IMG/VR virus record: IMGVR_UViG_3300038548_000311
Location: 1-43,530 of that record
Source: a virus
Strand: one strand, 5' to 3'
Length of the DNA: 43,530 bases
Positions 37,705 through 38,610 of the stretch are shown piece by piece. The first letter of the stretch is position 1. Each line of letters starts with the position of its first letter. The position numbers and the translations under genes were made by a program. The notes below the pieces were generated by a model. It made no database searches, was not told where the DNA came from, and worked only from the letters and a program-made list of their open reading frames with translations.

Positions 37705-37755
37705 AATTATAAGGAAAAATCAAAATGACTAACTTACTAAAAATAAAAGTAGCAG
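37705..37755 (+). repeat. 51-bp leader repeat, copy 1
   Basis: Identical to 38324-38374. It includes the AAGGA ribosome binding site, the ATG and the first ten codons of the MTNLLKIK genes 1 and 3. Gene 2 shares only the part from the ATG onward (about 27 bp). Confidence 0.93.
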
Positions 37756-37955
37756 CAGCAGCAGCAGTAGAAGCAGCAGCAGCAATAGTAGCAGCAGTAG
37801 CAGAAGCAGAAGCAACAGCAGAAGCAATAGAAGCAGCAGCAGTAGCAGAAGCAGCAGCAACAGTAGCAGCAGTAGCAGAAGCAGAAGCATCATCAAGAGC
37901 AGAAGCAGCAGCAGTAGCAGTAGCAGAAGTAGCAGCAGTGGCAATAGGAGAATAA
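37725..37955 (+). CDS. MTNLLKIK family Ala-rich triplet-repeat protein 1
   Basis: 76 aa. After MTNLLKIK the protein is almost only A, V, E, I and T (for example VAEAEATAEAIEAAAVAEAA), ending IGE. From codon 4 on nearly every codon ends in A (GCA, GTA, GAA, ACA, ATA, AGA, TCA); the only exception is one GTG. The DNA is thus a degenerate (GCA)n tract with most changes at codon position 2. It predicts an acidic Ala-rich helix. The minus-strand poly-Leu frame is a by-product. Function unknown; ribosome binding site and leader conservation support translation. Confidence 0.65.
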   Translation: MTNLLKIKVAAAAAVEAAAAIVAAVAEAEATAEAIEAAAVAEAAATVAAVAEAEASSRAEAAAVAVAEVAAVAIGE

Positions 37956-37959
37956 CTAA

Positions 37960-38280
37960 ATGACTAACTTACTAAAAATAAAAGCAACAGTAGCAGCAGC
38001 AGCAAAATTAGCATCAAAAGCAGCAAAATTAGCAAGAGCAGCAGCAACAGTATCAACAGTAGCAACAGCAACAGAAGCAGAAGCAATAGAAGCAGAAGTA
38101 GAAGCAGTAGCAGTAGCAGTAGCAGAAGCAGCAGCAGCAGGAGAAGCAATAGAAGTAGCAGAAGCAATAGAAGTAGCAGAAGCAGCATTAGCAGAAGCAG
38201 CAGTATCAGAAGCAGCGGCAGCAGTAGCAAGAGCAATAGAAGCAGCAACAGAAGTAGAAGCAGTAGCAAAAGGAGAATAA
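37960..38280 (+). CDS. MTNLLKIK family Ala-rich triplet-repeat protein 2
   Basis: 106 aa, the longest member. It starts MTNLLKIK, has a Lys/Arg-containing segment (AAKLASKAAKLARAAATVS, residues 13-31), then A/V/E repeats and ends KGE. Again the codons past the leader end in A almost without exception. GGAGAATAACTAA before its ATG is repeated just after its own stop (38272-38284), where ATACG stands instead of an ATG, as if a further copy had been lost between genes 2 and 3. Confidence 0.65.
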   Translation: MTNLLKIKATVAAAAKLASKAAKLARAAATVSTVATATEAEAIEAEVEAVAVAVAEAAAAGEAIEVAEAIEVAEAALAEAAVSEAAAAVARAIEAATEVEAVAKGE

Positions 38281-38323
38281 CTAATACGAATTGGAGCAGA
38301 AAATAATTAAACACGAATATATT

Positions 38324-38374
38324 AATTATAAGGAAAAATCAAAATGACTAACTTACTAAAAATAAAAGTAGCAG
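38324..38374 (+). repeat. 51-bp leader repeat, copy 3
   Basis: Identical to 37705-37755. The exact identity at the nucleotide level, including untranslated bases, points to recent duplication. Confidence 0.93.
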
Positions 38375-38610
38375 AAGCAGTAACAGCAACAGTAGCAGTA
38401 GCAGCAGCAACAGCAAGAGCAGTAGAAGCAGCAACAGAAGCAGCAGCAACAGCAGAAGTAGTAGCAGAAGCAATAGAAGTAGCAGAAGAAGCAGCAGCAG
38501 TATCAGAAGCAGCAATAGAAGCAGCAGCAGTAGCAGAAGCAGCAGCAGCAGCAGCAGCAGCAGCAGTAGCAAGAGCAGCAGTAGAAGTAGCAGTAGCAGC
38601 AGATTGCTAG
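38344..38610 (+). CDS. MTNLLKIK family Ala-rich triplet-repeat protein 3
   Basis: 88 aa. The same start, then VAEAVTATVAVAAATARAVE and further A/V/E/T repeats, including a run of nine Ala encoded by nine GCA codons near 38540-38570. Ends VAVAADC, the only member with a final Cys. GCA runs of this kind can change length by slippage, so length may differ between relatives. Confidence 0.65.
   Translation: MTNLLKIKVAEAVTATVAVAAATARAVEAATEAAATAEVVAEAIEVAEEAAAVSEAAIEAAAVAEAAAAAAAAAVARAAVEVAVAADC

Follow-up and report, generated by a model that had tools for sequence, protein, structure and literature searches.

A tandem trio of alanine-rich phage genes with a nearly invariant third codon base

Architecture of the locus

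Three adjacent open reading frames (ORFs) of 76, 106 and 88 aa lie on the plus strand of the IMG/VR virus contig IMGVR_UViG_3300038548_000311, whose entire length of 43,530 bp was analysed and is referred to here as the window. As the first-pass annotation of this DNA had described, all three predicted proteins begin with the same eight residues (MTNLLKIK), which in each paralog precede a variable body, and the genes form a tandem family. The features of the locus, together with a separate Ala-rich gene of the same phage, are as follows.

34711-35001, plus strand: separate Ala-rich gene, 96 aa, 26% Ala (codon counts)
37705-37755, plus strand: 51-bp leader of copy 1, with the RBS AAGGA (37711-37715), the ATG and the MTNLLKIK codons (exact repeat)
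37725-37955, plus strand: copy 1, 76 aa, Ala-rich, A-ending codons (ORF and codon counts)
37946-37959, plus strand: AGGAGAATAACTAA, the end of copy 1 (..GE*) and the RBS of copy 2 (sequence)
37960-38280, plus strand: copy 2, 106 aa, Ala-rich, A-ending codons, residues the most varied of the trio (ORF and codon counts)
38271-38284, plus strand: AGGAGAATAACTAA again, at the end of copy 2 with no ATG after it, an orphan RBS (sequence)
38324-38374, plus strand: 51-bp leader of copy 3 (exact repeat)
38344-38610, plus strand: copy 3, 88 aa, Ala-rich, A-ending codons (ORF and codon counts)
38610-38615, plus strand: GAGGAG, the RBS of the next gene (ATG at 38623), overlapping the stop of copy 3 (sequence)

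The leaders of copies 1 and 3 (37705-37755 and 38324-38374) are identical over all 51 bp, as previously noted, and constitute the longest exact repeat in the region; copy 2 has 25 bp in common with them. The orphan RBS at 38271-38284 may be a trace of tandem duplication. A relationship between the leader and the downstream gene (VTNLLRKW) was considered and set aside, as the 15 of 24 bases that match are within the range of chance.

An exact 127-bp terminal direct repeat (1-127 and 43404-43530) makes it probable that the contig represents a whole genome of ~43.4 kb, closed by assembly overlap or by a terminal repeat. For its terminase and DNA polymerase, identity to Microcystis phage Mel-JY34 and Vibrio phage VS-ABTNL-3 is 34-41%, and the DNA polymerase is 41% identical to that of the environmental phage ctMlz233. 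The Ala-rich trio is absent from these three nearest annotated phages, although the replication genes that flank it on the 3′ side are collinear with theirs. Elsewhere in the genome, a very large minus-strand gene (6383-12469, 2028 aa) probably encodes an internal virion protein, as judged by position only. A second contig, 3300043166_000037, is identical in sequence across 11,662 bp including the trio region, with the qualification that the two assemblies may share reads. Because the terminal repeat closes the contig, exact repeats in the trio region do not exceed 51 bp, and the second contig agrees throughout, the trio is unlikely to be an assembly artefact.

Codon composition of the repeat bodies

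The third codon position is A in 72/76, 102/106 and 83/88 codons of copies 1, 2 and 3, respectively, compared with 32% in the 14 other genes of the window. Downstream of the leader, 242 of the 244 body codons end in A (shares of 0.98, 0.99 and 1.00 in the three bodies), which bears out the earlier statement that nearly all codons past the start are A-ending, unlike those of the neighboring genes. The bodies consist of GCA (122 codons), GAA (40), GTA (37), ACA (13), ATA (9) and a few others, consistent with a coding array founded on GCA, as had been proposed. Variation had also been described as residing mostly at codon position 2, and departures from GCA are indeed most frequent there (102; T 50, A 44, G 8), followed by position 1 (40; A 31, T 9, C 0) and position 3 (2; GCG and GTG). 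No tRNAs for A-ending codons were found among the phage tRNAs sought in the 43,530-nt window.

Codon order within the bodies is close to random (first-order Markov), with little block duplication, and less of it is visible than in most comparator bodies. A history of block duplication read directly from the trio arrays was rejected on this basis. A-targeted mutagenesis of the DGR type was also rejected from the sequence, because A is the invariant base.

This pattern of change bears on a passive origin, in which a GCA microsatellite would have decayed by G:C to A:T mutation, been duplicated along with its RBS, and come to be translated without function. Nearly all changes from GCA fall at G:C pairs and only 2 at A:T, which is compatible with such decay, as is the lack of homologs described below. 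However, changes at A:T pairs and stop codons are nearly absent, the leaders and RBSs are fixed, the predicted proteins display an amphipathic period (see below), and three copies coexist in a compact 43.4-kb genome, so that a purely passive origin seems rather unlikely.

Searches for relatives

No match to the trio was found in annotated phages by DNA homology or by protein homology (tblastn), nor among PHROG and Pfam profiles, low-complexity filters limiting both the tblastn and the profile tests. The Imm5_like domain (PF21805) was not matched at E values up to 1. A degenerate MTNLLKIK pattern retrieved from IMG/VR only the identical phage and chance matches; no diverged relative was found, the sole IMG/VR relative being identical in sequence. 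A literature search yielded no relevant description of phage Ala-rich repeat genes. Arrays of the GTAGCAGAAGCA type in bacterial genomes were considered as relatives and rejected as unrelated microsatellites and linkers. Among bacterial sequences, the Flavobacterium sp. PMG_227 MAG contains GTAGCA/GAAGCA hexanucleotide arrays in at least 4 contigs (L381, L388, L389, L390), mostly as short frames without a clear gene.

Third-base fixation in other phages

A broader view was obtained by scanning IMG/VR with the codon-neutral pattern AAYAADAA, which restricts the third base to C or T for Tyr and Asp codons only and leaves Ala codons free, and by adding the four Ala-rich genes of the window itself. 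The matches listed, together with these four genes, include 109 Ala-rich bodies, and as with the second codon-neutral scan (AEAVAEAA), the counts describe a sample rather than a census. Among the matches listed, a single third base occupies at least 90% of codons in 79 of the 109 bodies and at least 95% in 65. Of those 79 bodies, again among the matches listed, 43 are fixed for C, 33 for T and 3 for A, and all three A-fixed bodies are those of the trio. Ala codons are also monotone, as illustrated by GCT in 100/105 codons of L305 and 61/66 of L349. A fixed third base with variable first and second bases is the rule in AAYAADAA-type genes. The AEAVAEAA scan returned mostly ordinary or out-of-frame stretches whose third bases are mixed (median 0.45, among the matches listed), and strict scans for A-ending arrays yielded microsatellites and linkers, with no further tandem family of stand-alone genes among them. 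Since neither approach produced another such family, the A-ending, stand-alone, triplicated form appears to be rare.

Tandem arrangement itself is found elsewhere. The minus strand of phage contig L364, which is unrelated to the trio's phage, carries a tandem pair of T-ending Ala-rich genes (from 2905 and 3159, reverse coordinates) whose bodies have diverged while both the N- and the C-terminus are conserved. The first-pass annotation had regarded the trio as resembling nothing described in phages, a view that does not hold: Ala-rich repeat ORFs with monotone third bases are common and include this pair. We define a descriptive class by an Ala-rich body of at least 35 codons in which one third base occupies at least 90% of codons. 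The trio has bodies of this length and degree of fixation, and its paralogs combine a fixed N-terminus with a variable body, as does the L364 pair; the filter-limited tblastn, PHROG and Pfam searches linked it to no known member or family, but homology is not required by the descriptive class. The trio would thus seem to be a rare variant within a common kind rather than a new system. The separate Ala-rich gene at 34711-35001, situated directly 5′ of a UvrD-type helicase gene, has T-biased third positions (61/96) with GCT as its main Ala codon. It is no homolog of the trio, yet it is of the same general kind within one phage.

Whole-codon length change

Evidence on how such arrays may evolve comes from two phage contigs, L393 and L401, whose sequences agree at 99.64% over 11.7 kb; of the 9 mismatches between them, one lies in the ORF. 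The sole gap of the aligned stretch is a 33-nt indel (11 codons) situated inside an A-ending Ala/Glu array. This suggests that in A-ending Ala/Glu arrays the gain or loss of whole-codon blocks can outpace substitution, in which case the third base would be kept. The slippage-type length change previously suggested for the trio finds a parallel here by analogy only, for no length variant of the trio array was seen, its sequence being in a single state across the two contigs that contain it. Block growth may nevertheless have occurred in the trio array as well; given the little visible duplication and near-random codon order, its block history would have to be old or scrambled.

RNA structure and Hfq

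A function of the CAG-type RNA itself had been proposed, and GCA does correspond to the CAG triplet. The strand, however, forms less stable folds than any of 20 dinucleotide shuffles (z +3.47), with a nearly unpaired centroid, and a CAG-repeat hairpin function is therefore hardly credible.

Another possibility involves the host RNA chaperone Hfq. The distal face of Hfq binds repeated A-R-N triplets, one trimer per monomer (PMC4104026), and in the trio A corresponds to codon position 3, R to the next position 1 and N to position 2. In-phase A-R-N triplets number 64/67, 90/97 and 76/77 in copies 1-3 (total 230/241). Taking consecutive A-R-N triplets in RNA predicted to be unstructured as the mark of an Hfq target, the trio carries that mark. 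Conceivably, the mRNA could serve as a long A-R-N array, a sponge or landing strip that titrates host Hfq, with the protein being secondary, a coding price; the phage would thereby counter Hfq-dependent regulation with an mRNA sponge of its own. This explanation accommodates the in-phase triplets, predicts exactly which codon positions stay fixed, and agrees with the unusually unstructured RNA. Against it, Ala repeats of other phages have C- or T-fixed third bases, so that fixation of A needs no A-specific cause and the A-R-N fit, though striking, is not required. Moreover, G at position 1 arises mainly through Ala, Val and Glu codons, all of which start with G, and AGA and AGG, which are favored in Hfq cross-linking data, are not preferred over AGC. 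A role in Hfq titration is on balance very improbable.

Coding strand and predicted proteins

An RBS, a start codon and the fixed leader are present on the plus strand for each copy, within an all-plus operon. The minus strand is open across the arrays as poly-Leu frames, a result of array composition, and also in an NCT frame (Ala/Ser/Thr) that is Ala-rich. It could be that this T-ending frame is the real gene and the plus-strand reading its shadow, as appears to hold for the A-ending array of L219 with respect to a T-ending gene. However, within the arrays the frame contains no start codon (ATG, GTG or TTG) downstream of the preceding stop, which supports the earlier view of the open minus strand as a by-product. 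With the RBSs and leader conservation on the plus strand and adjoining genes oriented likewise, a minus-strand gene is extremely doubtful.

The predicted plus-strand proteins are acidic, with 11 to 17 Glu/Asp vs 3 to 8 Lys/Arg. The alternation of polar with hydrophobic residues has a periodicity of 111 degrees, close to that of a helix (p 0.004 across all angles for the three copies combined); this signal rests mainly on copy 2, where a duplicated EAIEVA may contribute. AlphaFold predicts helix almost throughout, with low confidence (mean pLDDT 58). Together, period and model would favor selection on a helix.

A model for the origin of the trio

The explanation that we favor, and consider probable though far from secure, is that the trio encodes small, acidic accessory proteins of the early region, which are translated, possess helical bodies grown in whole-codon blocks, and have a selected mix of residues. 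In each protein, the short, invariant N-terminus MTNLLKIK would be followed by a body that is acidic, rich in Ala, variable in sequence and probably helical. Starting from GCA codons, this body would have grown and been rearranged in whole-codon blocks, through slippage during replication or through unequal exchange, both inside single copies and from one tandem copy to another, and block copying would pass on the third base unchanged. Selection for a soluble, amphipathic helix would multiply position 1 and 2 variants (Glu, Val, Thr, Ile, Lys) rather than synonymous ones, and the same process may lie behind the T- or C-fixed Ala repeats of many other phages. We infer translation, a helical conformation in the cell and selection; a non-essential accessory role for the proteins is a working guess.

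This explanation is supported by the conserved RBS, ATG and leader of each copy and by the overlap between the stop of copy 3 and the RBS of the next gene. It is further supported by third-base fixation in 79 of 109 bodies among the matches listed, the L364 pair, the L393/L401 indel, the near-helical period, the AlphaFold helix, and the absence of the trio from collinear phages. Set against block growth, the imbalance between third-base changes (2) and all other variant codons (120) is extreme even under a block process.

More generally, the class-wide count indicates that in Ala-rich repeat genes of phages the residues vary but a single third base is retained, a retention that may be tied to the gain and loss of whole codons. 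It also serves as a warning that fixed third bases in Ala-rich repeat genes do not, on their own, point to an RNA function. As the A-ending, stand-alone, triplicated case, the trio may be useful for understanding the origin and diversification of small phage proteins.

Comparison with known systems

In eukaryotic codon-homogeneous repeats, slippage retains the founding codon, and homogeneous tracts show more length variants (PMC1557989). Those repeats hold to one residue and one codon, whereas in the trio only the third base is uniform and the residues vary. Arrays of GCA, GAA, AAA and GTA codons in phage contigs L135/L136, L391 and L393/L401 likewise have A as third base, within genes that are otherwise codon-mixed; they are linkers inside long phage proteins, while the trio consists of stand-alone tandem ORFs. 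Imm5_like (PF21805) proteins such as that of L305 have an Ala-rich, monotone repeat tail that resembles the trio bodies, but possess a domain for which the trio has no match. The AAYAADAA-type ORFs (e.g. L301, L364, L305, L349; PHROG 38757, 21347 and 18326, all of unknown function) are T- or C-ending and use Tyr, Asp and Arg, whereas the trio is A-ending and uses Glu, Val and Thr. Many of them have an N-terminal domain, in contrast to the trio with its 8-residue leader and three copies. Nonetheless, they resemble the trio in having a fixed N-terminus, an Ala-rich repeat body whose codons vary at positions 1 and 2 but hold to a single third base and, in L364, tandem paralogs.
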